Shown one piece after another: positions 37,863 to 61,353 of a DNA stretch of 64,000 bases. Below the pieces are notes generated by a model, which had not been told where the DNA came from, did no database searches, and worked only from the letters and a program-made list of their open reading frames with translations. The position numbers and the translations under genes are program-made. The stretch is taken from positions 62,001 through 126,000 of the forward strand of contig NZ_FNLC01000007.1 in NCBI RefSeq assembly GCF_900104065.1, read 5' to 3'. The first letter of the stretch is position 1. Every line of letters starts with the position of its first letter. The stretch is from Natronobacterium texcoconense (GTDB taxonomy: Archaea; Halobacteriota; Halobacteria; Halobacteriales; Natrialbaceae).

Positions 37863-38981
37863 ATGACGCTCTTACCGGTCGACACCGACGTCCTGGAAGA
37901 TGTGTGCCGGGACATCGCTCAAGACAACTACGGATTTATCTACGTCTCCGATCAGAAGGGGGAGATCAAGTCCGCCTACGAGAGCGCCGACGTGGGGCTT
38001 ACGAACGCGAAGTCGCTGTCCGCAAGCGACATGCGCAAGGCGCTGACCGAGATGGCGGCAGACGAGTTCATCGACCTCGAACAGCTCCGGGACGGCGTCT
38101 TCTACGTCGACCCGTTCGGCGTCAAGGGGAACATGAACATCACTCGCGAGTTGACGAATCTGTTCGGCCAGCGGCTGGTCGTTACCGGCGAGACGCTTCG
38201 CTCGCGGTTCTCGCTCGCGATCGACGACATCGAATTCTTCGCGGACGAACTCGCCGATCGGGACTACGTTCGCCGAATCACGGCAGGCAAACGCGACTAC
38301 TACACGATCGGCCCACAGCTCAAGGAACACGCCGACGACGTCGGACTCGACTCCCGTCTCGAGCGGGAGGCCTCGAACGGCAAGATCGCTCACAGCGACC
38401 TCGAGCGGGTCATCGACGTCGACGCGACGTCCGACGTGATCCGGTATCTCGACCGCGAAGGGTACATCGTCGACCTCGACGGGGAGTACCTCGTCCAGGA
38501 GGCGATCGACGAGTACGGTCGCTACCTCACAGAAGAGATCGATGAAGCGATCGAGGCGGAGTTCGAGGAGTCGAGTTACGTGCTCCGGACCGACGAGTTC
38601 GAGCAGGTCGTCGAGAACGAGATCGACGTCCGGTTCGACGTCCTCTCGAAGGCCCGTAGCGTCCGCCGAGAGATCCTCGAGGAAACCCGTTCGACGCTGG
38701 TCGAACGGCTCGGACTCGACGAGGGTCGGGAGATGATCGAGATGGTCGATCCGTTCGAGGACGTCGTCGAGGATCACGCCAGACGGATTCTCACCGATAT
38801 GAAAGCAGAACAGGACCAGCTTCCGGGGACGCTGCCGGAGTGGGTCGAACTGGCCGAGGAACACTTCGAGGAGTTACAGGTCAGCAACGCCGAACCGGTC
38901 AACGAGCACGTTCGCGACGCGGTCCGAAGCCGGTACCGGAGTCTCGTCAACGACGAAGAGTTCGGCGGGATGGCGGAGTGA
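37863..38981 (+). CDS. tandem winged-helix-like protein of the tubulin/AAA system
   Basis: A 372-residue soluble acidic protein, first gene of the rightward operon. No family recognised. The sequence reads as serial small helical units with winged-helix-like endings: 'LSASDMRKALTEMAADEFID', then 'VTGETLRSRFSLAIDDIEFF' with 'ADELADRDYVRRITAGKRDY', and 'IAHSDLERVIDVDATSDVIR' with 'YLDREGYIVDLDGEYLV'. No DNA-binding function is implied; tandem winged helices also build adaptor proteins such as ESCRT-II. The C-terminal 120 residues are long helices. Confidence 0.7.
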   Translation: MTLLPVDTDVLEDVCRDIAQDNYGFIYVSDQKGEIKSAYESADVGLTNAKSLSASDMRKALTEMAADEFIDLEQLRDGVFYVDPFGVKGNMNITRELTNLFGQRLVVTGETLRSRFSLAIDDIEFFADELADRDYVRRITAGKRDYYTIGPQLKEHADDVGLDSRLEREASNGKIAHSDLERVIDVDATSDVIRYLDREGYIVDLDGEYLVQEAIDEYGRYLTEEIDEAIEAEFEESSYVLRTDEFEQVVENEIDVRFDVLSKARSVRREILEETRSTLVERLGLDEGREMIEMVDPFEDVVEDHARRILTDMKAEQDQLPGTLPEWVELAEEHFEELQVSNAEPVNEHVRDAVRSRYRSLVNDEEFGGMAE

Positions 38982-39010
38982 ACACGGATACCAACCAGGT
39001 GTACTAATCA

Positions 39011-40069
39011 ATGCCTCAAAAATACGAATTCGAACGGATCGAAAGCGACGGACGGGAGTACGTGATTGCCGACCCGGTCAACCAGACCGACGACCCGGTG
39101 CGTCTCGAGGCCGAGTGGGTCGAGGGCGACGACGTCGAAGGCGAGTGGGAACGAGCGGTCCGGGCGATCATCAAGACCGATCTGCTGGGATCGATGGAAC
39201 TCAAGGAGGGCAACGGTCGGATCGACCGCCGGCAGGCGATCGAGACGCTGACCGAAGCCAGCGACGAGGAAGGCGACATCGTCACCAGCGACCAGCAGGC
39301 CGAAGCCCTGCTCGAGTTCTTCGCTCACGAGGACATCCTCGAGCTACAGGGCGGCGATGTCGTGATGCTTCGTAACCCGAGCGAGAACGCCGAGGAGGTA
39401 AACGGCCGGATGATCCTCAACTGGGCGGCCGCGATCGACGCCTGCGTCGAGAAGATCTCCGAGACGATCGACCGGGTCGACAGCGCGAAGGCGAAACTCG
39501 AGAACCGGATCGACGACCTCGACCAGGACTCGGGCAAGATCGACGAGCACCTGGAAGAGACGGCTCAGGAACTCAAGAGTCTGGGCGACGGTCCCGGCGT
39601 TCCGGAGGACCCCTCGACGCTCCCGAAAGACGAGCAGGAGCGGTTCCAGCAGCTCAAACGGAAGCTGATCTACCACAAGAAGATGAAGGAGGCGGACCAG
39701 GAGAACCTGGCCGACAAGGTCGAGAGCGGGACCGCCAGGCTCGCCGACAACATCGAGATGCTCGAGTCGGCCAAGACGACGCTTGCAAACAAACGCGAGC
39801 AGGTCCGGACCCAGGCGCTGAAGAAACAGACGTTCCCGGACGAGGCGATGAACATCGTCGACAACATGGGCGAACTCACGACCCAGCTCGCCGGCGTGGG
39901 TGGGTTCGAGGAAGAGCTAGAGAACACGGAGGACCACGAACTCGACTCGATAGCGGACGACATCCTCAACGACATCGGCTCCCTCGGCGAGACCGCCCAG
40001 CAGACGGCCGGCGAGGAGGTCGAAGAGACGGAAGCGGAGACGGAGACCAGCGGCCTCGAGATGTCGTAG
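39011..40069 (+). CDS. coiled-coil protein with a winged-helix-like head
   Basis: A 352-residue soluble protein. Residues ~50-120 resemble a winged helix ('DRRQAIETLTEASDEEGDIV', then 'DQQAEALLEFFAHEDILELQ'). A long helical part, ~135-300, has heptads ('DSAKAKLENRIDDLDQDSGK') and a basic stretch 'LKRKLIYHKKMKEADQENLA'. The tail is acidic. The layout (basic helical hairpin, then acidic end) is reminiscent of Snf7/ESCRT-III-like proteins, but I see no sequence proof. It starts 29 nt after its upstream neighbour and ends 1 nt before the next gene. Confidence 0.7.
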   Translation: MPQKYEFERIESDGREYVIADPVNQTDDPVRLEAEWVEGDDVEGEWERAVRAIIKTDLLGSMELKEGNGRIDRRQAIETLTEASDEEGDIVTSDQQAEALLEFFAHEDILELQGGDVVMLRNPSENAEEVNGRMILNWAAAIDACVEKISETIDRVDSAKAKLENRIDDLDQDSGKIDEHLEETAQELKSLGDGPGVPEDPSTLPKDEQERFQQLKRKLIYHKKMKEADQENLADKVESGTARLADNIEMLESAKTTLANKREQVRTQALKKQTFPDEAMNIVDNMGELTTQLAGVGGFEEELENTEDHELDSIADDILNDIGSLGETAQQTAGEEVEETEAETETSGLEMS

Positions 40070-40070
40070 G

Positions 40071-40775
40071 ATGCGTGCCGATTCGTTGTTGCAGAGTGTC
40101 CGCCGGGTCGACGATCAGGGGGAGCGTCTCCTCTCGCTGCGGACGTTTTCGGGGCCCGAACCGTCGCGGCGGATCGACGTCGCGACGGCGACGCTCGGCG
40201 ACCTCGCAGAACTGCTCCGGACTGGCGCTCCGTTTCCGCCGCGGGTGGGGGATACGACGATTAGACGGGCCGATTTCGACGCCTCTCCAGCCGGATCGTC
40301 GACGACAGCCGAAACCGATCGGGCGCGATCGACCGATCTCGTCCTCGGCGTCCTCGAGCACAGTTACGAGCGAGGCGGGGCGAGGATCGACGACTTCGAA
40401 CCGGCACTCGCAGATCGGATCGCGGCCGACGACCGCCTCGAAACCGTCGGTTCGTGGGTGCTGGTGCCGCTCTCGTCGACCGCGCCGTACGCCCGAAACT
40501 GGTGGCCGGTCGTCGAGACGCTCCTCGACCGTCTCGAGGGCGTTCTCGAGGATTTCAGACGGGTTTCGCGGCGTGTCCGGGTCGCTGGAATCGATCACTC
40601 GCTCGCGACGGGCTGTGAGACGGTCGTCGATATGCTCGAGACGCTCTCGCTGGTCGTCAGGCGAGCCGACGCCGATTCCAGGTACGTCTCGAACCGGACG
40701 GACCAGCGTCAGGGGGAATTGCTAGCGACGATCGAGAACGCGACAGCGCAGCTACGAGGGAACGACGATGGATAA
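40071..40775 (+). CDS. helical protein of the tubulin/AAA system
   Basis: A 234-residue soluble protein that I cannot place. The first ~90 residues have a basic-acidic mix ('RRVDDQGERLLSLRTFSGPE'), and the rest is predicted helix with Leu/Val heptads ('WWPVVETLLDRLEGVLEDFR' and 'LETLSLVVRRADADS'). No membrane segment or catalytic motif. It sits between the coiled-coil protein and the AAA ATPase, overlapping the latter by 8 nt (ATGGATAA), so its translation is coupled to the ATPase's. Confidence 0.65.
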   Translation: MRADSLLQSVRRVDDQGERLLSLRTFSGPEPSRRIDVATATLGDLAELLRTGAPFPPRVGDTTIRRADFDASPAGSSTTAETDRARSTDLVLGVLEHSYERGGARIDDFEPALADRIAADDRLETVGSWVLVPLSSTAPYARNWWPVVETLLDRLEGVLEDFRRVSRRVRVAGIDHSLATGCETVVDMLETLSLVVRRADADSRYVSNRTDQRQGELLATIENATAQLRGNDDG

Positions 40776-42477
40776 TCTAACGCCAATACTGAAACGAGAT
40801 CAGCCGACGTCCCGAATCAAGATCGGGGCAAAGAAAGTCGGACCGAACGCGGAGACCGTCGAAATACGCCACAACGGGAGGCGGGCCTTCTTCTACGTCG
40901 AACCGATCGAGGACTCGATCGTCGACGGGATCGGGAACAAGGTCCGGATGCACCAGAACGTCACGACGGTGTTCGGCGGAATCGACCGGGGCAAGGACTT
41001 TCTCGTCGATTCCGACGCGAGCAAGCGCGACGTCGTGGAGTGTTCGTCCGCGAAGATCCACACGAGCGAAATCTCGCCGGACGACCTCGCGCCGTTCCTC
41101 CGGGAGAACGACTACCTGTTGCATCCGATGGAAGAAGTCGTCCCGAAAGGCGACGACCTGGCGACGTTCGAGGTCGCCGCGATGGAGCCGACTGGATACA
41201 ACACGCTCCGGGTAACCGAGGGGACGGAGTTCGAGTTCATCGACGCCGGCGAACTCCGGGAACTTCGCGCGACGCGGAACGCAGCAGGTCGCGGCGGCCC
41301 CGGTGCCGGTCCCGGTGAGGAGGGCGCGGACGAGGACGAGATCCAGGTCACTCTCGAGCCCAAGAAGCCGACCGTCAGCTTCGAAGAGGACGTCGCGGGG
41401 CTGCCGGAGGTCAAGCGGACGGCCGAAAACCTGCTTGCGCTGTTCGATCCCGACGTTCGCGACGAGGTGGTCGAACGCTACGGCGACGAGTTCGCCTCCC
41501 GCGGTAACAGCATGCTGCTGTACGGGCCGCCGGGCTGTGGGAAGACGCTCATCTCCGAAGCGATCGCTTACGAGGCCAAGTACAACTCGAACATCGAGGA
41601 CAGCTACGGCGAGGTGAAGTTCTTAGAGATCAAGGGCAGTGACGTCCTCTCGAAGTACTCCGGCGAGTCCGAGAAACGCGTCGAGGCGATCTTCGAGAAG
41701 GCCCACGGGATCGCACAGGAGGGGTTTGCCGTCCTCTTTTTCGACGAGGTCGACACTCTCATCCCGGATCGCGGAGACGACTCGCTGCAGCGTCACGAGC
41801 GGTCACTGACCAACGCCTTCCTCCAGGAGATGAACGAGATCGAGGACAACCTGCTCGTGATCGGCGCGACGAACATGCCCTTCACCATCGATCCGGCCGC
41901 GACGAGACGGTTCCCGATCCAGCAGTTCATCCCCCAGCCCGACCGGGAGGTGATGGCCGGAGTCTGGCGCAAACACCTCTCCGAGATGAACGCCACCGAG
42001 GAGATCGACTACGAACGCCTCGGCGGTGCCTCGGAAGGGTACACGCCGGCCGAAATCGCCGACCGCGTGCTCGGCAGCGAACTCCAGCGGGAGTTCGTCG
42101 AGAGCGTCTACCAGCCCGACAGAGAGCCCATCGACCCCGATACGGACTACTTCCTCGAGCGACTCGAGGAGACCGATCCGAAGACGATCCGCCAGTACGT
42201 CGCCAGCGTCCGGACCCAGATCGACGACCTCGAGGGGTATCCGGAACTGCGCCGATACGTCGAGGATCAGGCCGACCGGCTGGGGATGCAACTGGGCAAC
42301 GAGCCGTCGTCGCTCGAGCGGCTGCTCGCCGGCAGTGGGGCCGAGACGGACGAACCCGACGCTGCCGACGGCGACACCGACGGCGGCTTCGACTTCGGCG
42401 ACGGTGACGGTGGCGACGACGGTAGCGGTGGAAACGGCAGTGACTGTAGCGACGACGGTGGTGGCGACGATGGCTGA
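40768..42477 (+). CDS. Cdc48/Vps4-like single-ring AAA ATPase
   Basis: A 569-residue classical AAA ATPase. The N-terminal ~190 residues include a part resembling the Cdc48 N-domain ('ATFEVAAMEPTGYNTLRVTE'), followed by a Gly-rich linker. The ATPase core has Walker A 'GPPGCGKT' (253-260), an aromatic pore loop with Tyr297 ('SKYSGESEK'), Walker B 'LFFDEVD' (323-329), sensor 1 Asn ('GATN'), and Arg residues in 'DPAATRRFP' at the Arg-finger position. A helical C-terminal domain and a Gly/Asp-rich tail end it. Only one ring is present, so it is a remodelling/unfolding motor rather than full Cdc48. Substrate inferred to be within the operon. Confidence 0.9.
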   Translation: MDNLTPILKRDQPTSRIKIGAKKVGPNAETVEIRHNGRRAFFYVEPIEDSIVDGIGNKVRMHQNVTTVFGGIDRGKDFLVDSDASKRDVVECSSAKIHTSEISPDDLAPFLRENDYLLHPMEEVVPKGDDLATFEVAAMEPTGYNTLRVTEGTEFEFIDAGELRELRATRNAAGRGGPGAGPGEEGADEDEIQVTLEPKKPTVSFEEDVAGLPEVKRTAENLLALFDPDVRDEVVERYGDEFASRGNSMLLYGPPGCGKTLISEAIAYEAKYNSNIEDSYGEVKFLEIKGSDVLSKYSGESEKRVEAIFEKAHGIAQEGFAVLFFDEVDTLIPDRGDDSLQRHERSLTNAFLQEMNEIEDNLLVIGATNMPFTIDPAATRRFPIQQFIPQPDREVMAGVWRKHLSEMNATEEIDYERLGGASEGYTPAEIADRVLGSELQREFVESVYQPDREPIDPDTDYFLERLEETDPKTIRQYVASVRTQIDDLEGYPELRRYVEDQADRLGMQLGNEPSSLERLLAGSGAETDEPDAADGDTDGGFDFGDGDGGDDGSGGNGSDCSDDGGGDDG

Positions 42478-45265
42478 TCGCTACAGGCAGGTCGGCTCCT
42501 TCGAGAGCGGGCGCGTCGCGGCCGTCGGCGTCGGCGACGAGATAATCGCGATCGGTCTCGAGGACTGCGTCGAGGTCGTCGACGGAAGCCGTTCGGTCGA
42601 AATCGACCACGGCGAGCGAGTCGTCGACGTCGCGGTCGCCGACCGAATACTCGTGCTCTCGCCGGCCGAACTGACGACGTACTCCAGGGACGGCGACCGG
42701 CTCTGGAGTCAGGAACTCGAGGACGCCCACGCGATTGCGGCCATCACCGACCGCGGACTCTGTGGTATCCTCGGCCCCGACCGGTTCCGCGCCGTCGACG
42801 TCGCTACCGGCCGCGAACGGTTCGACGTCGAGCGATCGCGGCCGGGCGGTTCCGACGACGACTTGCTCGCCGTTCCCACGGGATTTCTGATCGCGACCTG
42901 GTCGTTTCTCACGCACGTCGACGCCGACGGCGAGGTGGACTTCGACCGCGACCTCTCCGCGGTCGTCCGAAGCGTCGGCCGCTGTGAGGACGCGATCGTC
43001 GCGACACTCCAGAGCGATCAGGTCGTCGGTATCCAGGCCGGTACCGGGGAACTTCGGTGGCGAACCGAACTCGAGGCGACCCACGTCGCACCCGTCGGCG
43101 AGGGAGCGGTCCTCGTGCGGACGGCCGACGGAATCCGAGCGGTCGATCCGGAGGGGACGACCGAACCGGTCGGCGATATCCCCGACGGTGACGTCTACGC
43201 GACGGCCGACGGAACGACCGTCTGTTCGGTCCACGACGGCACGGTATCGATCCACGTCCACGGCGGGGACCGACTTTCCCTCGCGGTCGCGACCGACACC
43301 GTCGGCGCGGGCGGAACGATCGACGTCGAGGTGACGAACCCGACGGATCGTGAACGGACAGTCTCGCTCGCCGTCGACGCCGCGGGTTGTTCGCTCTCGC
43401 CGAGCGACCGGACCGTCACCGTCGCTCCGGACGAAACCGTACTCGCCGAGTTCCCGGTCGCAGCCGTGCAGTCGGAGGGGCACGCTGCCCTCGAGGTCGC
43501 CGTCGACGGCTCGGTCACCCTCCGGGAGACGATCGCGCTCGAGGACGCCACAAGCGGCGAAGTGGCCGTCGAGACCGACCTCGAGCCGATCGGAATCGAA
43601 GATGGGGTCGTCGAACTCGCGGTGACCGTCGAGAACGTCGGTGACGTCGCACTCGACTCGGTTCGGCTCCTCGAGACGGGCGACAGTTCCGACGAGATGG
43701 CACCCGACGAGACGTGGACGACGACGGTACCGCAACCCTACGAGCCCGATCGACGCGTGTCGGTGGGGCTCGAGGTGGTACGCGGTGACCGTCGCCGGGA
43801 GTACGCCCCGACGTGTTCGCTTCCGCCGGCACCGACGATCGACCTCGAGGCGAACGGCGACGTTTTGCGTGCAACGGTCGCGGTAGCGGGTGAGGTCGCC
43901 GTCTCCGATCGGCTGGTACTCGAGGTGCCCGGTGTCGACCGCGTCCAGTCGCCGGTGACGATCGACGGCGAGGACCTTCTGCTGGTCGTCCCGCGGTACG
44001 ACGGCGGAACCGCACGCATCGGCTTCGACGCCATCGACGTCGACGAACGGATACGGCTGTCCGGTTCGGGTCCGTTCGCGACGCCGGCGGACTCGAGCGA
44101 CCCGCGTAGTCAGAACCGAGTCCGGACCGAACGTGACGAGACGCGGGAGTCGCCAGCGAACGACTCGGCTCCGCGTGCCGACCGTGGGTCGCCCGACGCT
44201 GGAACCGACCCGGGACTTGCCGTACACCGACGCGTCTCCGACGACTCGCCAGTACTCGGTCACGCCGTCCGCGACCGACTCGTCGTCGAAAACGAGGGCG
44301 ACACCGCGGCGGACGTCTCCCTCACCGTCGACGGCGACCGCCTCGAGGTCGGCCCGCTAGCGCCCGGCGAGTCGACCGCGCTCGAGCGGATCGTCAGTGG
44401 CGTTTCGAGCGACGGGATCGTCCTGCCGCGAGCGACGCTCGAGGCAGACGGGCGGACCGTCGACCGACTCTCCGAGCACCGACTCGACGTCGCCAGGTCG
44501 GGTGTCGCCGTCAGAGCGGCGGTCGATCCGGCCGACGGACGGATCGTCGCCGACCTCGCGAACCGAACCGATCGGGACTGTCGAGTACTCGGCGTCGAAC
44601 TCGCCGAACAGGGTGCCGAGTCGGTCGGCGAACGGCTCGCTGCCGGCGAGACGACGACCGTGTCTATCGGACCCGACGCGGATCGACGCCGGGCGCTCGA
44701 GGGCGACACTGCCGCGCTGTCGCTTCCGATCCGGTACGCCGACGGCGAGGAGGAGACGATCGATGCGCTGGCAGCGGTCGTCGCGCTCGAGTCGGGATCG
44801 GCCGCTACCGAGTCGGGTTCGGAAGACGCGCTGCTCACGACCGAAATCGGCTCGGAGACGCGGGCAGCAGGCGAGTACGGGTCAGTCGTCCTCGTCTTCG
44901 AAAATGGGAGCGACCGAACGCTTTCGAACGTCTCGGTGTCGGCGACCGGCGACCCCATCGACGAGACGTTCTACTCGGCGGCCCACCGTGAGGTGCTCGA
45001 AGCAGGCGACTGGATCGAACACTTCGTCGACCTCGAGGCAGGTGTCGACGACCCGACGTTCGAGGCGACGGTGGAGTACGCGCTCGAGGACGTCGAGCGA
45101 GAGTACACCGTTCGTGCGTCGGGGCCAGCAGTCGCAGACGAGGACGACTGGACCGACGATCACCTGGCCGCGTGGTCGGTCGACCGGATCGACGAGTCGA
45201 CGTCGTCGACGCCGTCCGTGCCGACGCTCCCGCCGTCACTGGCGACGCCGTTCCGTACGCGGTAA
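42470..45265 (+). CDS. beta-propeller plus Ig-like repeat protein
   Basis: A 931-residue soluble protein with no signal peptide. Residues ~1-270 form a PQQ/WD-like propeller ('RLWSQELEDAHAIAAITDRG', 'DVATGRERFDVE', 'QAGTGELRWRTELE'). About 280-900 carry repeated CARDB-like Ig modules ('IDVEVTNPTDRERTVSLAVD', 'VVELAVTVENVGDVALDSVR', 'LVVENEGDTAADVSLTVDG'). Such modules are usually extracellular; here they seem cytoplasmic, as no export signal is visible. It begins in the last 8 nt of the AAA gene (ATGGCTGA). It is likely a scaffold or adaptor of the ATPase. Confidence 0.75.
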   Translation: MADRYRQVGSFESGRVAAVGVGDEIIAIGLEDCVEVVDGSRSVEIDHGERVVDVAVADRILVLSPAELTTYSRDGDRLWSQELEDAHAIAAITDRGLCGILGPDRFRAVDVATGRERFDVERSRPGGSDDDLLAVPTGFLIATWSFLTHVDADGEVDFDRDLSAVVRSVGRCEDAIVATLQSDQVVGIQAGTGELRWRTELEATHVAPVGEGAVLVRTADGIRAVDPEGTTEPVGDIPDGDVYATADGTTVCSVHDGTVSIHVHGGDRLSLAVATDTVGAGGTIDVEVTNPTDRERTVSLAVDAAGCSLSPSDRTVTVAPDETVLAEFPVAAVQSEGHAALEVAVDGSVTLRETIALEDATSGEVAVETDLEPIGIEDGVVELAVTVENVGDVALDSVRLLETGDSSDEMAPDETWTTTVPQPYEPDRRVSVGLEVVRGDRRREYAPTCSLPPAPTIDLEANGDVLRATVAVAGEVAVSDRLVLEVPGVDRVQSPVTIDGEDLLLVVPRYDGGTARIGFDAIDVDERIRLSGSGPFATPADSSDPRSQNRVRTERDETRESPANDSAPRADRGSPDAGTDPGLAVHRRVSDDSPVLGHAVRDRLVVENEGDTAADVSLTVDGDRLEVGPLAPGESTALERIVSGVSSDGIVLPRATLEADGRTVDRLSEHRLDVARSGVAVRAAVDPADGRIVADLANRTDRDCRVLGVELAEQGAESVGERLAAGETTTVSIGPDADRRRALEGDTAALSLPIRYADGEEETIDALAAVVALESGSAATESGSEDALLTTEIGSETRAAGEYGSVVLVFENGSDRTLSNVSVSATGDPIDETFYSAAHREVLEAGDWIEHFVDLEAGVDDPTFEATVEYALEDVEREYTVRASGPAVADEDDWTDDHLAAWSVDRIDESTSSTPSVPTLPPSLATPFRTR

Positions 45266-45309
45266 GGAGTTGCTGTCCTCGAGGGAAATCGAAGAAAATT
45301 ACGGGACGC

Positions 45310-48544: not shown

Positions 48545-48547
48545 GCG

Positions 48548-51235: not shown

Positions 51236-51241
51236 GGCTCG

Positions 51242-52471: not shown

Positions 52472-52472
52472 G

Positions 52473-54569
52473 TTACTGTATCTCGATCGCTGTTTCGGTG
52501 GTCGTCACGCTGTGCTCCGTCTCGTCGATCGTCGCGATCACATCCCGGATAATCGAGTCGGACACCGGTGCCGAGAGGAAGTTCTGTCTGAGTTCGTCGA
52601 AGGGAAGTCGATCACCCGACTCGACGTTGTACTCGAGAACGTTCGTCAACTCCCGCTCGAGTTCTTCGCGGTCGTAGACGACGATTTCGTCGCCGTCCCG
52701 GTAGACGTCGTACTCGGTACGCTCGCTCCATGTCGCGAGCAGACACGGCGCGTGTGGGTCTCGCACCGGGAGGTCCATCGTCGTCGAGACGTACCCTTCC
52801 TCGTCGAACAGGTCCTCGAGGTGGGGCCGCATCTCCGGGAGCACCTCCTCGATGTCCGTATCGAGGTCTCCACAGAGTTGCTCCTGGAGGCTTCGCTCGG
52901 TGAACTCGAGGTCGATCTCGGTGCCGTCGTCGATCTCAATCTCCCGTTCGACGATGCCGAACGCCTCGTCGCCCGGATCGGCGACGAGCGTGTGGGTGCC
53001 CGCGGGCACGTCCTCGAACGTTATCGTGCCGGCGACTCGCGTCTCGACGGTTTCGGTCGCCGCGTAGCCGCCGGTCAGTTCGATCGTCGCCGTCCGGACG
53101 TCGCCGCCGCGTTCGTACGCGACGTCGACGGTGAGTTCGTACGTCTCGACGTCGCCACGTCGAAGGACGGGCACGTCGGGATCGAACTCGACGCCCTCGT
53201 TCCGACGGAAGTAGAGCCCGAGGAACTGGTCTGCGTGGCGCATCGGCAACTCCTCGCCGGTCACTTCGCCCTCGCGCTCGAGCGTCTCCTCGATCGTCTC
53301 GGCGACGTCGTCGTAGGCGTCGACGACCGCCGCTTTGGTGCTCGCCGTCTCGAGGGCCTCGACCAGTTGCGTCGCGACTTCGCTCCAGCGGTCGGTAAAC
53401 GCCTCGAGATCGCCGATTTCCTCGAGTTCGTCGACGAAGCGTTCACCGACGACCGACGGCTCGCTGTAGTAGCCCGACGGGAGATCGGCGTCTCGGAGCG
53501 TCTCCACGTCGTCCGCGAGGTCACCTTCCATCGCGGCGATCACGTCGACGCACGTCCGGCGCAGGTCCGCGCGTGGCCGACTCAGTTCCGCCAGATCCAG
53601 CGCCGAGTCGAGTTCCTCGACGGTCGACTCGATGCGATCGATCTCGTCGACGTAGTCGGCGTCGACGTGGGCGTCGACTCCGGTCCGATCGACGGCGTCG
53701 ATCAGGGACCGCAACGTCTCGCGTTCCTCCTCGAACGACCCGGAGAACTGATCGCGAAGCCGGTCCCGCGCCTCGAGGATCGATTCGACGGCGTCGTCGA
53801 ACGCGTCTTCGTCGAGGGCCTCGCGTGCGTCTTCGAGGTCGCGATCGATGGTGTCCGCGTCGTCGGGACGAACGTCTCCCCGCCCCATCTCGCGGACGGT
53901 GCCGATCGCGTCCTCGAACGATTCCGTCGCCTCCGTCCGGAGGGCCTCGATCGCGTCTCGACACTCCGGCACCGAGGCTTCCCGCTCCGGATCGAGTTCG
54001 GGATAGGCGTCGTGGTCGGCGTCTGCGAGGTCGACCTCTTCCAGGCGCTCGAGTGCAGCCTGGATTCGCGATCGTTCGCCGGCACCGAACTCGCGGAACG
54101 AAGACGCAACGTCATCCTCGAGGGTCTCGATCTCGGTCGATAGCCGTTCGAACTCCTGGAGGTCGCCGTTCTTGACGCCCTTTCCGAGGTCGAACGCGCC
54201 CGACTCGAGGTCGACGGTGACGCCCTGCGTCTCGAAGTCACCCGCGATCGACTCCATCCGGGCGTCGACGCCAGGATTCCAGTCGGCGTAGGCGCTCTCG
54301 AGGCTGTTTACCCGTCGAACGCACTGCTGGAACTCCTCGGCGACCGACCGGGCGCGGGTGCGGACGAACTGCTGTTCGCTGGTGCCGCTGCGGGCGACGA
54401 CGCCGCGGACGTACAGCGTGATCCCGGTGACGACGACCAGCGGGATGCCCACGAGCACGAACCAGGTCGCGGCCTGTGAGCCGGACCAGACGAAGATACC
54501 GGCACCGAGCGCCGCCGCGAGGACGACGAGTCCGCCGATTCCGGCGGCAGTCTTCCCGTTCCCGTTCAT
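52473..54569 (-). CDS. membrane-anchored cytoplasmic coiled-coil protein
   Basis: A 698-residue protein with two N-terminal membrane helices (~10-28 and 34-55), then ~640 cytoplasmic residues. These include a long acidic helical region (~60-440; 'DLEDAREALDEDAFDDAVES'), a beta-sandwich module ('TYELTVDVAYERGGDVRTAT' and 'GTITFEDVPAGTHTLVADPG') and a C-terminal alpha/beta part ('YDVYRDGDEIVVYDREELER'). The spectrin/septation-ring-like layout suits a membrane tether for filaments. It overlaps the upstream gene by 4 nt. Confidence 0.72.
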   Translation of the reverse strand: MNGNGKTAAGIGGLVVLAAALGAGIFVWSGSQAATWFVLVGIPLVVVTGITLYVRGVVARSGTSEQQFVRTRARSVAEEFQQCVRRVNSLESAYADWNPGVDARMESIAGDFETQGVTVDLESGAFDLGKGVKNGDLQEFERLSTEIETLEDDVASSFREFGAGERSRIQAALERLEEVDLADADHDAYPELDPEREASVPECRDAIEALRTEATESFEDAIGTVREMGRGDVRPDDADTIDRDLEDAREALDEDAFDDAVESILEARDRLRDQFSGSFEEERETLRSLIDAVDRTGVDAHVDADYVDEIDRIESTVEELDSALDLAELSRPRADLRRTCVDVIAAMEGDLADDVETLRDADLPSGYYSEPSVVGERFVDELEEIGDLEAFTDRWSEVATQLVEALETASTKAAVVDAYDDVAETIEETLEREGEVTGEELPMRHADQFLGLYFRRNEGVEFDPDVPVLRRGDVETYELTVDVAYERGGDVRTATIELTGGYAATETVETRVAGTITFEDVPAGTHTLVADPGDEAFGIVEREIEIDDGTEIDLEFTERSLQEQLCGDLDTDIEEVLPEMRPHLEDLFDEEGYVSTTMDLPVRDPHAPCLLATWSERTEYDVYRDGDEIVVYDREELERELTNVLEYNVESGDRLPFDELRQNFLSAPVSDSIIRDVIATIDETEHSVTTTETAIEIQ

Positions 54570-55300
54570 CGGATCACCCCCAGCAACTCGACGTCGACTC
54601 CGAAGTGGAGAACGAAGACGGCGATTCCCGCTATTGCGAGGACGAGTCCGAGCAGGATCGGCAACAGTGCCGTCTTCCGGTCGTAACTGACGTCCCGGCT
54701 CAGCTTCATCTTCTCGTCGACGCGCCTCGCGGCGATCAACGGCAGTGCAGCGCCGGCGACGGAACCGACGAGCAGGCCGCCGAGAAGCGGCCCGAACAGA
54801 GCGATCTGAACCGTCGATTTCGGCTCGTTGCGCTCGCTCTCTACCGCATCCACGTACTCGTCTGTCGCGTTCGCGAGCGCCTCGGTTCGCTGAGTACGCT
54901 GTGTGTCGATCGTCTCGATCACACCGACCGTCCCCGTCGCGTTCCCCGCTTTCGTCTCGCTTCGTAGGTAATTCACGAACGCAATCTCGTCTTCGGTCAT
55001 GTTCTGGTTCCGGTCGTCGAGGCGCTCGAGCGTCGCATTCGCGTTGTCCAGCGCTTCCTCGAAGTTCGTCTCGTCGTCTTCGATCGCTGCGATCGACTCG
55101 TTCAACTGATCGATCTCGTCCTGAAGGCGGTCCGACGACTCGAGATACTGCTCCTCGTGAGACTCGTACTCGCCGTCGCTTTCCGTGATCCAGTCGACGT
55201 CCTCGAGTTCGGAACTGTCTGCCGCGACAGTGCCGCCGACGATGGCGATTCCGACCGCTAGTACCGTCACGAGAATCAGGGCTCGCGTCGCACTAGTCAT
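54566..55300 (-). CDS. exported coiled-coil protein with two C-terminal membrane helices
   Basis: A 244-residue protein. Signal peptide (1-27), an extracytoplasmic coiled coil (~35-160; 'QDEIDQLNESIAAIEDDETN' and 'NANATLERLDDRNQNMTEDE'), a helix at ~166-190 and another at ~210-236, with the basic loop 'ARRVDEKMKLSRDVSYDRK' between them in the cytoplasm. Overlaps neighbours by 8 and 4 nt. Function unknown. Confidence 0.72.
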   Translation of the reverse strand: MTSATRALILVTVLAVGIAIVGGTVAADSSELEDVDWITESDGEYESHEEQYLESSDRLQDEIDQLNESIAAIEDDETNFEEALDNANATLERLDDRNQNMTEDEIAFVNYLRSETKAGNATGTVGVIETIDTQRTQRTEALANATDEYVDAVESERNEPKSTVQIALFGPLLGGLLVGSVAGAALPLIAARRVDEKMKLSRDVSYDRKTALLPILLGLVLAIAGIAVFVLHFGVDVELLGVIR

Positions 55301-55562
55301 GTAACCGCCTCCTGATCTGTCGGTTCTTGTGCCAGTAGGTGAGAGCGCTCGCGACGACGAGTCCGACGCCGAGACCGATCAGGAGTCCGCCAGCGGCGAC
55401 GAATAGTGGATCGGCCGCGAGTTCGAGTGTCGTCTGTGCTCGGTCGGTCGCTCCGGTAGCGTCTCCGATCGGTGATTCGGCCGCTGCGACGCCGACGAAG
55501 CCGAGACACGCCAGCGCGACTGCGAGCGTTCTGGTCGTAGCCCGTCGTAGCCTCCGTTTCAT
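55293..55562 (-). CDS. small exported membrane protein
   Basis: An 89-residue protein. Signal peptide ('TLAVALACLGFVGVAAA'), a short external stretch, one membrane helix (~53-75, 'PLFVAAGGLLIGLGVGLVVA') and a basic cytoplasmic end ('HKNRQIRRRLHD'). It overlaps the tubulin-like gene upstream by 4 nt (ATGA) and the downstream gene by 8 nt, so it is a real, translated member of the operon. Confidence 0.7.
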   Translation of the reverse strand: MKRRLRRATTRTLAVALACLGFVGVAAAESPIGDATGATDRAQTTLELAADPLFVAAGGLLIGLGVGLVVASALTYWHKNRQIRRRLHD

Positions 55563-56842
55563 GCCAGCAACTCCTCCGTCTCCGTCTCGTAGGCGTCTGC
55601 GGCCGCTTCGATCTCCTCGAGGCGGTCGATGTCCTCACGCCGGTAGGTCAGTAGCGTCGTCACCGACGCGAGGTTCCGGTCGCTGAGTGCGACGCCGAGA
55701 TTCACTTCGCTCAGTCCGCAACTGCGCTCTAAGAACTCCTTGACCGTTCCCGTCTCGATACTGTACGGTCCGGCCTCGAGGTTCGCGCTCGGAGCCCTGA
55801 CGAGCGAGATGGCCTTCTGTGCGTCGTCGACGTCCGCGTTCGCGAGCGTCTGTTTCGACGCCGACAGCCGGGACAGCGCGGCGCTGTCGATCTCTCGCTT
55901 GCCGACGAACGGCAACAGGTAGCCCGGCAACGATCGGGTCATCGTCACCGATCGTCCGATCGCGCCGTACCCCGGCTTCGAGTCGTCGGTGCCGACGCCG
56001 AACGACAGCGAGGTTACGATGTCCCGAACGTCGATGTCGGGTGTGTCGATTCCCTCGACCTCGCTCGCGTCGACGCTGCTGAGCATCGGGCCGGCGACCA
56101 TGTCGTGGATCGCCGCCGCGACGTACTCGTTGTACTCGCCGAACTCGCCGCCGGCGGAGTCGAGATACGAGATGCGCTGGTTGTCGACGAGGATGATGCC
56201 GTCGACCTCCTCCTCGAGCCGATTCAGGCCGTAGCGGGCGTTCCAGGCCTGTCGGCCGGCGGTCGTCTCCTCGTCGTCGGAACCGCTGCTCCCCTGCATG
56301 TTCGGCAGGATGGCGACGGCGATGATCTTCGTGTTATCGTCCGTGAACGCCTTGATCTCCCGTGCGAGGTGTGGGCTGATGCCACAGCCGGTTCCACCGC
56401 CGAGTCCGAGAAAGAGGAAGGCAAACTGGATCGTATCGGACCGGCCGCGGTCGGCCGCGTTGCCGCCGGATTCGTCGTACTCCGACTCGAAGCCGCGCTC
56501 GAACTTCTCGCTGAAGATCGTCTGTAGCTCCGAGGTGTGGTCGTCCATCACCTCGTCGGCCGCGGCGGGGTTGCGCCCGAAGCCGCCGGTAACCATCTCC
56601 TCGAAGCCGGGTTCGGTTCCCTGAACCAGGCCGTGCTGTTCCGCGATGCCGTACTGATCTTCGGCGGGCACGTTCGACAGGTTCTGGAGGTCCCGCATCG
56701 TCGAGTTAAAGACCAGCGGTCGACCGAGCGTCGAGATGTCGGTCGATTCGAACAGCCCTAACATCGAGTCGTCGGTATAATCGAAGATCGCATCGACGAT
56801 CGCTCCCCCTGCCTGTCCCGCCCCTACGAACAGGTATGTCAT
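55559..56842 (-). CDS. tubulin/FtsZ-superfamily protein 2 of the system
   Basis: A 427-residue protein with the clearest GTPase motifs of the three. 'LFVGAGQAGGAIVDAIFD' (loop 1; the GxGQAGG form is shared with tubulin and CetZ), 'VFNSTMRDLQNL' and 'FLGLGGGTGCGISPHLA' (GGGTGCG at 148-154). 'VAILPN' and the central helix 'NEYVAAAIHDMV' follow. Like the other two it lacks FtsZ C-terminal motifs. It heads the leftward eight-gene run and probably has its own promoter in the AT-rich gap upstream. Confidence 0.85.
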   Translation of the reverse strand: MTYLFVGAGQAGGAIVDAIFDYTDDSMLGLFESTDISTLGRPLVFNSTMRDLQNLSNVPAEDQYGIAEQHGLVQGTEPGFEEMVTGGFGRNPAAADEVMDDHTSELQTIFSEKFERGFESEYDESGGNAADRGRSDTIQFAFLFLGLGGGTGCGISPHLAREIKAFTDDNTKIIAVAILPNMQGSSGSDDEETTAGRQAWNARYGLNRLEEEVDGIILVDNQRISYLDSAGGEFGEYNEYVAAAIHDMVAGPMLSSVDASEVEGIDTPDIDVRDIVTSLSFGVGTDDSKPGYGAIGRSVTMTRSLPGYLLPFVGKREIDSAALSRLSASKQTLANADVDDAQKAISLVRAPSANLEAGPYSIETGTVKEFLERSCGLSEVNLGVALSDRNLASVTTLLTYRREDIDRLEEIEAAADAYETETEELLA

Positions 56843-57136
56843 TTGAGTTTCAACTGATTATGTATTTCACACACAAAATAATTGATAGACGATACACGTT
56901 TCGACGGTAGGTAGTAATCGAGTATCACCTAATAAAGATATTGGCTGTTGCTGTTATCTCGTTCTATTCGGACGTTTGGGCGTTAGTTGTGTGGTTTAGA
57001 GAAGTAATATATTCGGGTGGGTTCCGGGTTTCTATTCTCGAGAAAAGACATATGTGGAAACTAATAGTTGTCCGGCCCGTGGAAAACACAATAATACTGG
57101 TACGTTTTTCAGCGTAGCCGGAACGTGACTGCGGGA
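56843..57136. promoter_or_regulatory. AT-rich intergenic region with promoter of the eight-gene run
   Basis: A 294-bp stretch, far more AT-rich than its surroundings. On the minus strand 'aaatacataatc' and 'caattatttt' at about 56858-56882 could be TATA boxes for the tubulin-like gene starting at 56842. Other AT patches near 57020 and 57090 have no matching gene. No ORF of note. Confidence 0.45.
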
Positions 57137-57901
57137 CTATCCTCGAAGTCGCCGAAGCATGACGCTGTACTCGTTGCGGTCGTACAGCTGTTCGACGTAC
57201 GCCAGCAGTTCGTCCGCGGCGGAGAGGAGGCCGACGGCTCGTTCGGGACGTTCGCTCTCGAGTTGCATCGCTTCCTGCCGGAGGTCTCTGGCCAGCGAAA
57301 GGAAGTGGTTGGGAATCGTGTGGTTGTGGTCCGCTCGAACGTTGACGTACTCGTCTTCGATCGTCTCGATACGGGATTCGACGTCCGCCGCCAGCCGGCC
57401 CACGTCACTCGGCTGGTCGGCGGAACGGGCCCGTGCCAGCCGTGGCAACAGCGTCCGATCGTAGAACGTACACTCCTGATACACCGCGTACAGTTGTACG
57501 GCGTCGCCGTTCCGGTCGACCATCGCCTCGAGTTCCCGGATTCGATCCACGAGATGGCGATAGGTCGCCCCGTCTCTGTCCTGAAGCTCCGCCTCGAGCG
57601 AGTCGAGTCGCCGGCGGACGTCACGTTCCCCGATGTCGTCGATGCCCTCGAGCGCTTCTGCCGTCTCGAGTACCTCGATTGCGTCCTGCAGGACGTCTTC
57701 GACGCGCTCGCTCGTTGCGGACGGATCAGAAAGCGTCCGACACAGCCGTATCGCGAGATCGGAATCCAGACGTTCGCGGTTCGCGATCGTTTCGGCAGCC
57801 CTCGTCGCAGGGTGTGATTCCGGCTTCGAGTCTCGTCTTCTACCCCGGTCACGTTCCGATCGAGAGCTGTCGTCAGCGCCAGTGTTCGTGTCGTTCGTCA
57901 T
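57137..57901 (-). CDS. soluble helical protein of the system
   Basis: A 254-residue protein, helical throughout. An Arg/Asp-rich disordered start is followed by 'VEDVLQDAIEVLETAEALEG', 'RRRLDSLEAELQDRDGATYR' and a final pair of helices ('AVGLLSAADELLAYVEQLYD'). No membrane segment, no known domain. It lies between two tubulin-like genes (102 nt after one, 294 nt before the other) and is probably a partner or bundling factor. Confidence 0.65.
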   Translation of the reverse strand: MTNDTNTGADDSSRSERDRGRRRDSKPESHPATRAAETIANRERLDSDLAIRLCRTLSDPSATSERVEDVLQDAIEVLETAEALEGIDDIGERDVRRRLDSLEAELQDRDGATYRHLVDRIRELEAMVDRNGDAVQLYAVYQECTFYDRTLLPRLARARSADQPSDVGRLAADVESRIETIEDEYVNVRADHNHTIPNHFLSLARDLRQEAMQLESERPERAVGLLSAADELLAYVEQLYDRNEYSVMLRRLRG

Positions 57902-58003
57902 GGTTTTCGTGTCGTCGAATCGCCGTCTCTCTCGTTCGATTCCGAACTCCGGTGAGCGAAGCCCGCTTTCCGCTGCTGACGGTGGTCGCGTGCTCGGCTC
58001 GGT

Positions 58004-59626
58004 CTATCCCATGTTCTCCCGGCCCAGACAGGAGAACAGCGCCTCCACGTGTTCCCACGCGTCACGTACGTTCTCGGCCTGCTGGGTGTTACCCTCCTGT
58101 TTGAGCGTCCGGGCGTGGTCGTACATCTCCTCGAGCGACGGCATCTCCGGGTTCCACAGCGTTCCCCAGAGGTAGACGTCGTCGAGGTAGGGGGTAACGA
58201 GCTGTTTGACGTGGACGTCGACGGCCTCGATGCCGCTGACGCTTTCCGCGTCGAGGAACTGCTCGTCGGCGATGATACTCGAGAGGGTGCCGTCGGAGAC
58301 GAACTCGGTGACTTCTTCCATCTTCTCCTCGGGGCCGTAGACGAGGAAGGTGCCGCCCCAGGCCGTCGTCGGGTCGAACTCCGCGAGTTTGTTCTGGAAC
58401 AGTGCGTTCCGGACGAGAATCTCGAGTTTCGACTCGTCGAACGAACTGGCACGCGACCGTCCGAGGACGGGCGCGAGGATCACCGCTGGCGTGAACTCGC
58501 CGTCCGGATCGCGCTCGTACTTGTCCTGGACCGGTCGGAAACTGTCGGCAGGGTCGAATACGTCACCCTTGATCGACATGTTCGCATCCCGGTCGAGGAA
58601 CTGCGGCACCGACGACATGGTAAACGCCTCGAGGAAGGCGACCAGCGGCCGGTTGATCTCGCGGTACTGTGGCGGGTTGTACTCCTCGAGGCGGTCGATC
58701 CGCGGTCGGATGTCCGCCTGGGCGTCCTCCAGCCGGTTGTTGTCGAAGGGGATGATCGCGTCGACCGTCCGGGAGGCTCGAGCTAGCCCCACGACGCCGT
58801 TTACCTTCGCCCGGCCGCCGAACTCGGAGTACTCGGTCCCTTTCGAGGGGATGACGATGCTACTGAAAAGCGGCTTCGGGACGACGAAGTCGTCTTCCAG
58901 GACTTCGTTACGAACCTTTTCGGCGAGGACGGGCGTCGAGCCACAGCCAGTCCCTTTCGTGACGCTGTGGACGAACATGATCGCCTGCGAGTCCTGGATC
59001 GTCTGTGGCTTGAGATCCCACCGCTCCCGGAAGGGGTTGCCACCGTCCGCGAAGTCGGCCTCGACGAGGTCCTTGCCGATGTCCCACCGGTAGCCGGCAC
59101 CGGCGTAGTCGTGTTTCCCCTGGCCGATGATGCAGTTCGAGAGGAGGTCGTGTCGGCTGTACTCTTTCTCCTCCTGGGCGTAGTAGGTCTGCTCGAGTTC
59201 GCTGACGTTGGTGTTCAGCGGGCCGTATCCCGCGAGTCCCCCGTTCCAGATGCGGGCGCGACGTTCGTTGTTTTCCTCGAGGGTCTCGCGTCGGAGCAGT
59301 ATCGCGTCGAGGATGTTGTTCCCCGCACCGCCGACGCCGATCAGGAACCACTTCTTCCCGTAGGAACTGTCCATCAGGTCGTCGGTCGGCTGTTCGGTCC
59401 CTGACGGCCCACCTGTCGCTCCCGCTCCGTCAGTTCCGGGCGTTCCGCTGTGATTCCGGGCCGAATCGTCGGGCGGAGACTCGTCGAACACCTCCGCTTC
59501 TAGCTCCGGATACACTTGCTCGACCGATGCCGGTTCGTCCCCGTGTGCGAGTCGAACGTGTTCGACGAGCGAGCCGCCGTCCCACTCGTTCGCTCGCTTC
59601 ATACAGATTTTACAGATGTTGGCCAT
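58004..59626 (-). CDS. zinc-finger tubulin/FtsZ-superfamily protein 3 of the system
   Basis: A 540-residue protein. A C2H2-type finger (Cys5, Cys8, His23, His28 in 'CKICMKRANEWDGGSLVEHV' + RLAH) and a ~55-residue acidic/Gly linker precede the tubulin-like core. The core has 'FLIGVGGAGNNILDAIL' (94-110), 'PLNTNVSELEQ' and a changed signature, 'SVTKGTGCGSTP' (TKGTGCG at 223-229), where two Gly of GGGTG are Thr-Lys. GTP binding may persist but hydrolysis could differ. The finger is unusual for tubulins. A TATA-like box at 59661-59672 precedes it. Confidence 0.82.
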   Translation of the reverse strand: MANICKICMKRANEWDGGSLVEHVRLAHGDEPASVEQVYPELEAEVFDESPPDDSARNHSGTPGTDGAGATGGPSGTEQPTDDLMDSSYGKKWFLIGVGGAGNNILDAILLRRETLEENNERRARIWNGGLAGYGPLNTNVSELEQTYYAQEEKEYSRHDLLSNCIIGQGKHDYAGAGYRWDIGKDLVEADFADGGNPFRERWDLKPQTIQDSQAIMFVHSVTKGTGCGSTPVLAEKVRNEVLEDDFVVPKPLFSSIVIPSKGTEYSEFGGRAKVNGVVGLARASRTVDAIIPFDNNRLEDAQADIRPRIDRLEEYNPPQYREINRPLVAFLEAFTMSSVPQFLDRDANMSIKGDVFDPADSFRPVQDKYERDPDGEFTPAVILAPVLGRSRASSFDESKLEILVRNALFQNKLAEFDPTTAWGGTFLVYGPEEKMEEVTEFVSDGTLSSIIADEQFLDAESVSGIEAVDVHVKQLVTPYLDDVYLWGTLWNPEMPSLEEMYDHARTLKQEGNTQQAENVRDAWEHVEALFSCLGRENMG

Positions 59627-59660
59627 GTCTTCAGTTACCGTAGCCGTTCGTCGGAACTAT

Positions 59661-59672
59661 CTAAAGTATTAC
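59661..59672 (-). promoter_or_regulatory. TATA-like box of the zinc-finger tubulin-like gene
   Basis: The minus strand reads about 'gtaatactttag', 35-46 nt before the ATG at 59626. Confidence 0.4.
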
Positions 59673-59674
59673 GT

Positions 59675-59703
59675 GTGAGTGGAACTGCGAACGCAGTACT
59701 CAC
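59675..59703. terminator. hairpin between the 503-residue gene and the zinc-finger tubulin-like gene
   Basis: GTGAGT-gga-ACTGC-gaac-GCAGT-ACTCAC forms an 11-bp stem with a 3-nt bulge and a 4-nt loop. It may end the upstream transcript or be an operator just upstream of the TATA box at 59661-59672. Confidence 0.45.
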
Positions 59704-59750
59704 GAACTGTCTCGATAGCGTCTTTTTGCCGCCCCTATCGTTCTAACCAT

Positions 59751-61262
59751 TCATTTCACATGTCTGTCGGCGAACCGGTCACGGATCGTCTCGAGTCCCG
59801 CAGCGACGTTCGTCCGCTCGTCGAACTCGATCTCGAGAAAGCCCGGCGGCGCGTCCTCCTGTAACTCGACGTCGACGACGACGTCGGTCTGGCGTCGACA
59901 GAACCGTGCGAGTTCCTCAAGGACTGCCTGCTTCGCGACGGCGTCGGGAAGTCGTCCGGTCTGGCACTCGACGGTGTTGCCGTCGCCGACGCTCTCGAGT
60001 TCCCGCAGGACGAACAGCACTTCGTCGGCGACGGACTCGGCCGTCACCTGCTCGCGGGTTCGGTCCCGTGCCGGCGGTTCGTCGGCGGCCGGTGGTGTTC
60101 CGTTTTCCGTTCCGTTCTCCGGTTCACTACCGCCGTCCGACCGATTCTCGACGACGATCTCCCGTCCGTCGACTTCGGCGACGACGTCGTACTGCCGCTC
60201 GACGACCGGGGCCAGATCCGTCAGCACCGCCACCGGGACGTTCTCGGGAACCCCGACCGTTCCGCCGCCGTGATCGATCGTCCCGACCAGTCCACCCAGG
60301 AGATCGACCGTCACCAGCAGGTCGTCGGCCTGTTCGCGACTCTCCTCGAGCGTCCGGGTCGCGTCGTCGAACGCACACCGGTGGAACTGCCGGATCGCCT
60401 CCTCGAGTTGCCGTTCGATCCCGAGGACGCCGTCGATTTCGTCGTGTCTGCCCTCGAGGACGAACTCGCCGACGCGCTCGCCGAGGTCACCCTCGAGTCG
60501 GTCGGTCAGTTCGCGGACGTCCGCGAGGGCGTCTTCGACCGCTGCGTGTCGCTCGCGAAACGTCTCCTCCTGGCGGTCGACGTACGTCTCGATCTCCCGG
60601 CAGTGATCGAACAGCGTCGCGACCGTCCTGGCGGCGTCCCGGACGTACTCCTCGTCCTCGAGGACGTCCCGGGCGACGGCCTCGACGTCGGCGACGTGGA
60701 TCGTCTCCTCGGACGGCGGAAGCGACACCTCGCGGTACTGACTCGGGAGGTTCACGATCTCGTAGGATTCGCCGAACGACGACGTCACGCCTGGATCGAG
60801 GCGGCCGTCGGCGATCGCGTCCTCGATTCCACGACGGAGGTCGCGCTCGAGTCGGTCGATCGCCGCGGTCGAATCGTCGGCCTCGGCCGGGTCGAACTCC
60901 CGGACGCGGTCGACCGCGTCGGGTGCGATCGGCTCGAGGCGATCCAGCGTCCCGTCGCCGATCCGTTCCTCGAACTCGACGAGTGGGTCGGTCCCCTCGG
61001 TCTGTGTCTCCTCGGTGACGTCGATACTCGTCTCCGCCGGCGACGCCGACCGGCGAGAGTGAATCGCCACCGCCACCGTGCCGCCGGCGACGAGCACGGC
61101 TCCGACGAGGGCAAGCGCCGTTCCAGAGGTTCCCACGAATCCGACGACCGTCTCGAGTCGTCCGATATCGCTCACGGCCGAGAGTCCGGTTCCGCCGTCT
61201 CGAGCCGCCGCCGACCAGTCGACGAGAGCCGTCCAGTCCACGCCCCAGCGGTCGATCTGCAT
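59751..61262 (-). CDS. membrane-anchored cytoplasmic helical protein
   Basis: A 503-residue protein. One N-terminal membrane helix (~45-68, 'TALALVGAVLVAGGTVAVAI') leads to ~430 cytoplasmic residues, largely helical ('LFDHCREIETYVDRQEETFR', 'DALADVRELTDRLEGDLGER'), and a C-terminal alpha/beta part ('CRRQTDVVVDVELQEDA'). The layout is like the 698-residue protein at 52473 (membrane anchor, then cytoplasmic coiled coil). ATG 61262 is chosen; GTG 61271 is possible. A TATA-like box near 61292 gives a leaderless or short-leader transcript. Confidence 0.7.
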   Translation of the reverse strand: MQIDRWGVDWTALVDWSAAARDGGTGLSAVSDIGRLETVVGFVGTSGTALALVGAVLVAGGTVAVAIHSRRSASPAETSIDVTEETQTEGTDPLVEFEERIGDGTLDRLEPIAPDAVDRVREFDPAEADDSTAAIDRLERDLRRGIEDAIADGRLDPGVTSSFGESYEIVNLPSQYREVSLPPSEETIHVADVEAVARDVLEDEEYVRDAARTVATLFDHCREIETYVDRQEETFRERHAAVEDALADVRELTDRLEGDLGERVGEFVLEGRHDEIDGVLGIERQLEEAIRQFHRCAFDDATRTLEESREQADDLLVTVDLLGGLVGTIDHGGGTVGVPENVPVAVLTDLAPVVERQYDVVAEVDGREIVVENRSDGGSEPENGTENGTPPAADEPPARDRTREQVTAESVADEVLFVLRELESVGDGNTVECQTGRLPDAVAKQAVLEELARFCRRQTDVVVDVELQEDAPPGFLEIEFDERTNVAAGLETIRDRFADRHVK

Positions 61263-61353
61263 GTGCCACACCTGCCAGTAGAGGAGTAAAGAAGTATCGG
61301 CCTCGGGGGTACACAGCGAATCGAGGAGCTATCGACTCGTTAGATCTGCCGGA

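Follow-up and report, generated by a model that had tools for sequence, protein, structure and literature searches.

Archaeal tubulins have so far been known as FtsZ, which acts in division, as CetZ, the haloarchaeal tubulins of cell shape and motility, and as a loose set of non-canonical tubulins noted without their gene context (PMC9856176). In addition, FtsZl1 and FtsZl2 are known, and multi-gene loci centered on FtsZl1 have been predicted to serve membrane remodeling (Makarova and Koonin 2010, PMC2875224). Here, we analyze a stretch of 64,000 nucleotides from the haloarchaeon Natronobacterium texcoconense, hereafter the window (bases 62001-126000 of a 137-kb contig; the genome is 4.0 Mb, and Halobiforma haloterrestris is its closest named relative among those found). 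A cassette of 16 genes at window positions 37863-61271 encodes three tubulin-superfamily proteins, which we call TubA, TubB, and TubC, together with an AAA ATPase and a set of predicted membrane and exported proteins. We consider it fairly probable, at roughly 0.6, that the 16 genes together specify a single accessory multi-tubulin machine, anchored in the membrane, which couples GTP-driven filaments to fast-evolving surface proteins.

The FtsZl1 loci resemble the cassette in that a tubulin-superfamily protein outside division is part of a locus of several genes, many of them for membrane proteins. On the other hand, the cassette has three tubulins, a Cdc48/Vps4-type AAA protein, and another membrane set, and a Pfam scan of its proteins, with h7 scanned in the wrong frame, found none of the FtsZl1 partners (vWA, P-loop GTPase, kinase, and OmpA). 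The genome of the window has no FtsZl1 above the Tubulin_2 cut-off (PF13809, 27 bits). Among the open-licence papers that we found, none describes this gene set; subscription papers and preprints lay outside that search.

The three tubulin-superfamily proteins and the AAA ATPase

An earlier note on this DNA had read three of the encoded proteins as members of the tubulin superfamily, and this is borne out by Pfam, by profile matches to solved structures, and by one full-fold model. TubA (h4; 51242-52471, minus strand; 409 aa), TubB (h8; 55559-56842, minus strand; 427 aa), and TubC (h10; 58004-59626, minus strand; 540 aa) score 35.0, 57.1, and 41.8 bits against PF00091, all above the cut-off of 33 bits, and TubA and TubB are predicted GTPases. 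In profile searches of the PDB, the TubA family matched the solved CetZ1 4b46 at 2e-13 and the TubB family the solved CetZ 3zid at 1e-10, while the TubC family reached 3.5e-4 against solved FtsZ/CetZ chains and is the least certain of the three by sequence. TubC was the only one of the three to be modeled. Its AlphaFold model, built from 17 sequences (mean pLDDT 70.8, pTM 0.71), shows a complete tubulin-like fold across residues 90-538 with CetZ1 and CetZ2 as best matches, and residues 91-510 superpose on CetZ1 with a Z score of 33.9 and an rmsd of 2.6 over 321 residues. A linker joins this fold to the N-terminus of TubC, where C5, C8, H23, and H28 are invariant and spaced like a C2H2 zinc finger.

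The cassette tubulins share the GTP-binding loops T1, T3, T4, T6, and T7 with FtsZ, including FtsZ1 and FtsZ2. When motif conservation was scored over 39-41 sequences per family, the T4 loop was invariant in TubA (GGGTGNG, 39 sequences) and in TubB, and TubC carries KGTGCG instead of GGGTG(S/T)G. The DxxD of T7 is invariant in TubA, and two acidic aspartates of this loop are 97-100% conserved across all three families. In FtsZ, the T7 aspartates act on GTP bound by the adjacent subunit.

Despite these shared loops, TubA, TubB, and TubC score only 19.7, 33.2, and 25.6 bits against the FtsZ equivalog TIGR00065 (NCBIfam), far under its cut-off of 295 bits, and the genome encodes its own separate FtsZ and CetZ proteins. 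CetZ is the nearest solved fold of TubC and TubA and the same kind of GTPase, but none of the three cassette tubulins matches CetZ_C (PF21011) at E<=1, and they differ from CetZ further in forming separate tree clades and in belonging to a multi-gene cassette. Against Tubulin_2, TubB reaches 17.6 bits, and TubA and TubC give no match. By the tests made, none of the three appears to be an FtsZ, a CetZ, or an FtsZl1. In a tree, the three families are separate from FtsZ and CetZ; since long branches meet there, with support of 84/79, we make no claim of ancestry among them. The control for CetZ_C was a fourth tubulin-superfamily gene of the window, a true CetZ at 23623-24792 (minus strand; 141.7 bits, 2e-41), which sits on a long branch among the CetZ proteins of the genome.

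The predicted Cdc48/Vps4-like ATPase of the earlier note is g4 (40768-42477, plus strand), a classic AAA protein with a family-specific N-terminal part followed by one AAA domain (PF00004, 111.7 bits, 4.5e-32). Its motif set is complete: Walker A and B, sensor 1, the arginine fingers, and an aromatic pore loop are conserved across 35 sequences, and its closest solved relative is Cdc48. It scores 131 bits against the NCBIfam CDC48 model and 118.5 bits against that of CdvC (NF041006), both well under the cut-offs, which for CdvC is 650 bits, so g4 is not identified as a CdvC. The Cdv/ESCRT system with its Vps4-like CdvC may nevertheless share a principle with the cassette, in that a filament would be served by a Vps4-type AAA disassembler; it differs in that no ESCRT-III-like protein was recognized in the cassette.

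The 16 genes are inherited, gained, or lost as a unit

We searched 391 genomes of the class, accepting TubC orthologs at E < 1e-150. TubC orthologs are present in 38 of these genomes, spanning 16 genera, and g1 is present in exactly those 38; the chance of identical 38-genome sets is ~1e-53, uncorrected for kinship. TubA occurs in 40, namely the same 38 plus the genomes G042 and G048. Of the 38 genomes, 33 carry the complete set of 16 genes at a single locus with identical order and orientation, the count for h7 being less secure because its profile also matches wrong-frame open reading frames in some genomes. Two more loci are interrupted by contig ends, and in three Halopenitus genomes the g-operon is present but apart (by ~70 kb, by ~260 kb, or on another contig), with g1, g2, g4, and g5 seen among the separated genes. 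Order and orientation are retained down to ~50% TubC identity. The co-occurrence in other haloarchaeal genomes that the earlier note had proposed as a check was therefore found. The two converging operons, and their separation in Halopenitus, might still suggest a chance neighborhood of unrelated operons, but this reading is refuted by the identity of the TubC and g1 genome sets, separated cases included, and we give it practically no weight. The 16 genes are inherited, gained, or lost together.

A species of the same genus that lacks the cassette has the flanking genes up2 and Hel308 ~25 bp apart, which is a clean empty site, and the site in family f1 lies between a HAD hydrolase gene and Hel308. 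A similar helicase gene stands near a Candidatus Methanoperedens locus; the arrangements differ, and the resemblance looks coincidental. TubC of Halorubrum is 77-80% identical to that of the window, as compared to 62-64% in same-family g19 genomes, and the Halorubrum copies are closer to the window than some same-family copies in a similar way for most genes. Five plasmid records carry TubC, and the cassette is plasmid-borne in Halobacterium salinarum R1, Natrinema, and Halobaculum. Since Halorubrum copies are closer than same-family ones and plasmids carry the cassette, it probably travels as a block. Carriage by viruses was not seen: a search of 50,697 phage records gave no match to TubC, and viral contigs yielded no relative of TubB. 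One Halobaculum replicon (G340; L093-L094, L113-L114) has two cassette copies; the second has a stop codon within TubC and a g1 that is truncated where the record ends.

Plasmid carriage would suit a TubZ-type apparatus for partitioning plasmids or chromosomes, as would the zinc finger of TubC and the possible winged helices of g1 and g2. We regard such a role as highly improbable, since the cassette must be chromosomal in many genomes, where it lies on multi-megabase contigs, no TubR-like partner was recognized, and at least seven partners are membrane-bound or exported. A patchy, all-or-none distribution that extends to plasmids also speaks for antiviral defense, in which a membrane machine would act upon infection, and the AAA protein resembles IetA models. 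However, the IetA match reflects general AAA similarity, among the nine other proteins scanned no defense family is matched apart from weak coiled-coil matches of g2, and the family f1 site, the one site scanned, lies outside any defense island; we consider a defense function unlikely.

In H. salinarum R1, the cassette is carried by plasmid PHS2 (L119; locus tags OE_RS12000-12075), where it is annotated merely as FtsZ, ATP-binding, beta-propeller, and hypothetical proteins. No cassette match was found on plasmid pNRC200 (NC_002608) of strain NRC-1 in a search confined to that plasmid, and R1 and NRC-1 are possibly a natural plus/minus pair. The NRC-1 tubulin VNG6260G, named cetZ5 in PMC7439475, was considered as a cassette member and rejected: the part of pNRC200 that was read has a stand-alone 361-aa tubulin near gas-vesicle genes, outside the system.

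Within the window, the five genes g1-g5 read rightward and the 11 genes h1-h11 leftward, and the two sets converge across a 44-nt gap (45265/45310). The earlier note had these two sets right, and all 16 genes are present; its right end, 61262, is an internal ATG of h11, whose open frame begins at a GTG at 61271. Overlaps of 4-8 nt, said to join most genes, occur at 6 of the 14 same-strand junctions (g3/g4, g4/g5, h1/h2, h5/h6, h6/h7, and h7/TubB), provided that h1 begins at its second ATG. They do not occur at the other eight, four of which have gaps of 1-6 nt and four longer gaps of 29-294 nt. For h7, the automatic open reading frame at 55297-55638 was rejected as lying in the wrong frame. 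The true gene (55293-55562, minus strand) shares 4 nt with TubB and 8 nt with h6, and its 89-aa product has counterparts of 83 aa in H. salinarum and 88 aa in Natrinema. Elsewhere in the window, a row of genes at 15473-23433 encodes a MoxR-type AAA ATPase and DUF7519, DUF58, and TgpA-like transglutaminase proteins, and is predicted to be a second membrane-linked ATPase system near the cassette.

Core module, partner proteins, and selection

The system divides into a core (TubA, TubB, h1-h3, h5-h7, and g5) and a part made of TubC, h9, h11, and g1-g4. The core extends beyond haloarchaea, and TubB, the most widespread of the three tubulins, is found in other classes of Halobacteriota. What Methanoperedens and other Halobacteriota have is a reduced core of TubB, h1, and h2, to which TubA, h3, and h5 are often added. 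Candidatus Methanoperedens has TubB, TubA, h1, h2, h3, and h5, with h6- and h7-like genes in place; TubC and g1 were not found in the Methanoperedens genomes searched. Halobellus (L142) and G048 keep the core order TubB-h7-h6-h5-TubA-h3-h2-h1, and g5, which also adjoins the core in genomes without TubC, is present in G048. Among six further genomes of Methanoperedens' class, most have a TubB-like gene next to h2, h1, or both, and few other cassette genes; TubB-like matches as strong as these occur commonly in family f16.

Modules of the cassette also adjoin Tubulin_2-type genes, which is a further likeness to the FtsZl1 loci. In G413, TubB, h1, and h2 are joined by a further tubulin and by a Tubulin_2 relative; the same trio of tubulins recurs in G440, and G081 (L115/L116) carries TubC, h9, h11, and g5 beside a Tubulin_2 protein. 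Since modules are combined in this way, the cassette and the predicted FtsZl1 loci share a construction kit. Predicted multi-gene membrane-remodeling tubulin loci are thus already known and share modules with the cassette. Near the core of G042, a 1157-aa protein resembles a Tubulin_2 protein by look alone.

The earlier note had also described two membrane-anchored cytoplasmic proteins and five exported or membrane proteins. By hydropathy prediction, on which the topology of all cassette proteins is based, this description agrees with anchored h5 and h11 and with exported or membrane h1, h2, h3, h6, and h7. Signal peptides and transmembrane (TM) helices are predicted in h1, h2, h3, and h6, and h7 is a small membrane protein. 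The 750-aa exported protein h1 (45310-47562, minus strand) has an Ig-like ectodomain of the NEW3/ASH type, then a helical part, a C-terminal TM helix, and a short cytoplasmic tail. This tail (YxxDxxExxxGDFL) is kept from haloarchaea to Methanoperedens, while the h1 ectodomain is only 17-18% identical and the full-length protein ~18%. Its neighbor h2 (47546-48544, minus strand; 332 aa) has a helical ectodomain, a C-terminal TM helix, and a short tail, and it always adjoins h1, including in minimal TubB-h2-h1 loci. The fastest-evolving member is h3 (48548-51235, minus strand; 895 aa), with a beta-rich ectodomain, three TM helices, a large cytoplasmic part, and 47% identity to the same-genus copy. 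The 244-aa h6 (54566-55300, minus strand) has two C-terminal TM helices, and its homolog in H. salinarum is 352 aa.

On the cytoplasmic side, h5 (52473-54569, minus strand; 698 aa) has two N-terminal TM helices followed by long helical bundles and further domains. Its AlphaFold2 model (mean pLDDT 85, pTM 0.48) shows these bundles, a transthyretin/CnaB-like beta domain (Z 9.8), and a C-terminal alpha/beta part; EzrA/spectrin-like similarity was sought for h5, and by these searches relatives were found for the beta domain alone. In h11 (59751-61271, minus strand; 506 aa), an N-terminal TM region precedes a cytoplasmic coiled-coil part, and divergent relatives have four TM helices. The h9 protein (57137-57901, minus strand) is 254 aa, N-terminally short compared to relatives of 500-700 aa, and it follows a long TubB-h9 gap at 56843-57136 where most relatives have that longer h9. 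In Natrinema, h9 includes a PH domain along with a zinc ribbon, and the window copy seems to have lost its N-terminal PH/TM/zinc-ribbon part. The extreme C-terminus of h9 (YxxNxYSVMLRxLRG) is nearly invariant and the remainder varies freely, as may be expected of a docking peptide.

Among the other products of the g-operon, g1 (37863-38981, plus strand; 372 aa) and g2 (39011-40069, plus strand; 352 aa) are cytoplasmic, and the earlier note had labeled them a winged-helix/coiled-coil pair. The coiled-coil part of that label is weakly matched in Pfam for g2, a conserved neighbor of g1; the winged-helix part is suggestive, with a weak eIF2D winged-helix match in g2 and a possible tandem winged-helix arrangement in g1. 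The profiles of g1 and g2 gave no convincing solved relative, and a candidate likeness to UFL1-type winged-helix repeats was dropped, as the profile search gave no support and its top matches were chance-like. The position of g3 (40071-40775, plus strand; 234 aa) is conserved, and it has no Pfam match. The 931-aa g5 (42470-45265, plus strand) combines a PQQ_2-like beta-propeller with Ig-like repeats and lacks a signal peptide. In Halorubrum (L048, L052), g2 and g3 are 28-36% identical to the window, compared to 73-75% for the flanking g1 and g4, which points to an internal exchange of the two genes.

All measured cassette genes are under purifying selection, and constraint is much stronger on the engine than on the surface. 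Compared with the same-genus copy, the tubulins, the AAA protein, g1, and g2 had dN/dS of 0.11-0.18 and the exported proteins 0.29-0.51; in comparison with another genus, the respective ranges were 0.07-0.10 and 0.25-0.34. The strongly constrained g1 had values of 0.08-0.11. This pattern would fit an internal engine that is conserved and is coupled to a changeable exterior.

Fast-evolving ectodomains could also mean that the cassette serves cell-cell contact, adhesion, or antagonism, with exported Ig-like and helical ectodomains meeting other cells and a tubulin scaffold clustering them or drawing membranes together. The patchy, block-transferred distribution, with its closer Halorubrum copies, is in line with this, as is G081, where the TubC part lies some kb from ATPases resembling conjugation coupling and VirB4-type proteins. 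However, transfer-like genes were seen at just one of the examined loci, and no toxin, immunity pair, pilin, or secretion ATPase was recognized within the cassette. We regard a role in contact as possible, while stopping short of calling it probable.

A proposed machine between filaments and the cell surface

Returning to the accessory multi-tubulin machine, we propose that TubA and TubB, plus TubC in the full version, would form a GTP-dependent polymer beneath the membrane, tethered there by h5, h11, and the longer forms of h9. Through their conserved cytoplasmic tails, h1 and h2 would dock on this polymer and link it to the fast-evolving surface domains, and the AAA protein might pull the polymer or its anchors apart, making assembly cyclic. 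The TubC zinc finger, g1-g3, and the g5 propeller may regulate or scaffold the polymer. The likeliest use would be local reshaping of membrane or surface, such as at contact sites, in surface-protein patches, or in budding. The chief alternative to local reshaping is contact with other cells, and the two overlap. The cassette is unlikely to serve division or to set general cell shape, because FtsZ and CetZ are encoded separately in this genome and nine in ten relatives lack the cassette. The envelope-linked machine suggested in the earlier note fits the predicted topology and the selection pattern, and its functional role is likewise put forward here in conditional terms.

Several points weigh against this proposal. 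Polymer formation, the docking of the tails, and a link between the AAA protein and the tubulins are steps that we infer. Some core loci lack TubC and g1, and that of G048 lacks the cassette AAA protein too over the stretch that was read, so this protein is unlikely to be essential for core activity. Also, the winged-helix hints in g1 and g2 and the TubC zinc finger could mean that nucleic acids, and not membranes, are involved. A stricter version, in which three obligate, non-interchangeable tubulins would form one hetero-polymer that is docked to receptor tails and dismantled by a dedicated Cdc48/Vps4-type motor, seems to us doubtful. Such an arrangement would be a new class of trans-envelope cytoskeletal machine, and a prokaryotic counterpart of tubulin with a severing ATPase at the cell surface. 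If the three tubulins do form one polymer, the system would be of a new kind.

In 38 of the 391 genomes of the class, three defined new tubulin families thus occur jointly with their partners, and the location on PHS2 in H. salinarum R1 puts the cassette within reach of genetics. If our proposal is true, the cassette would offer a route to why a prokaryote should need multiple tubulins side by side, and to how an internal filament reaches the archaeal surface, which lacks a peptidoglycan wall.

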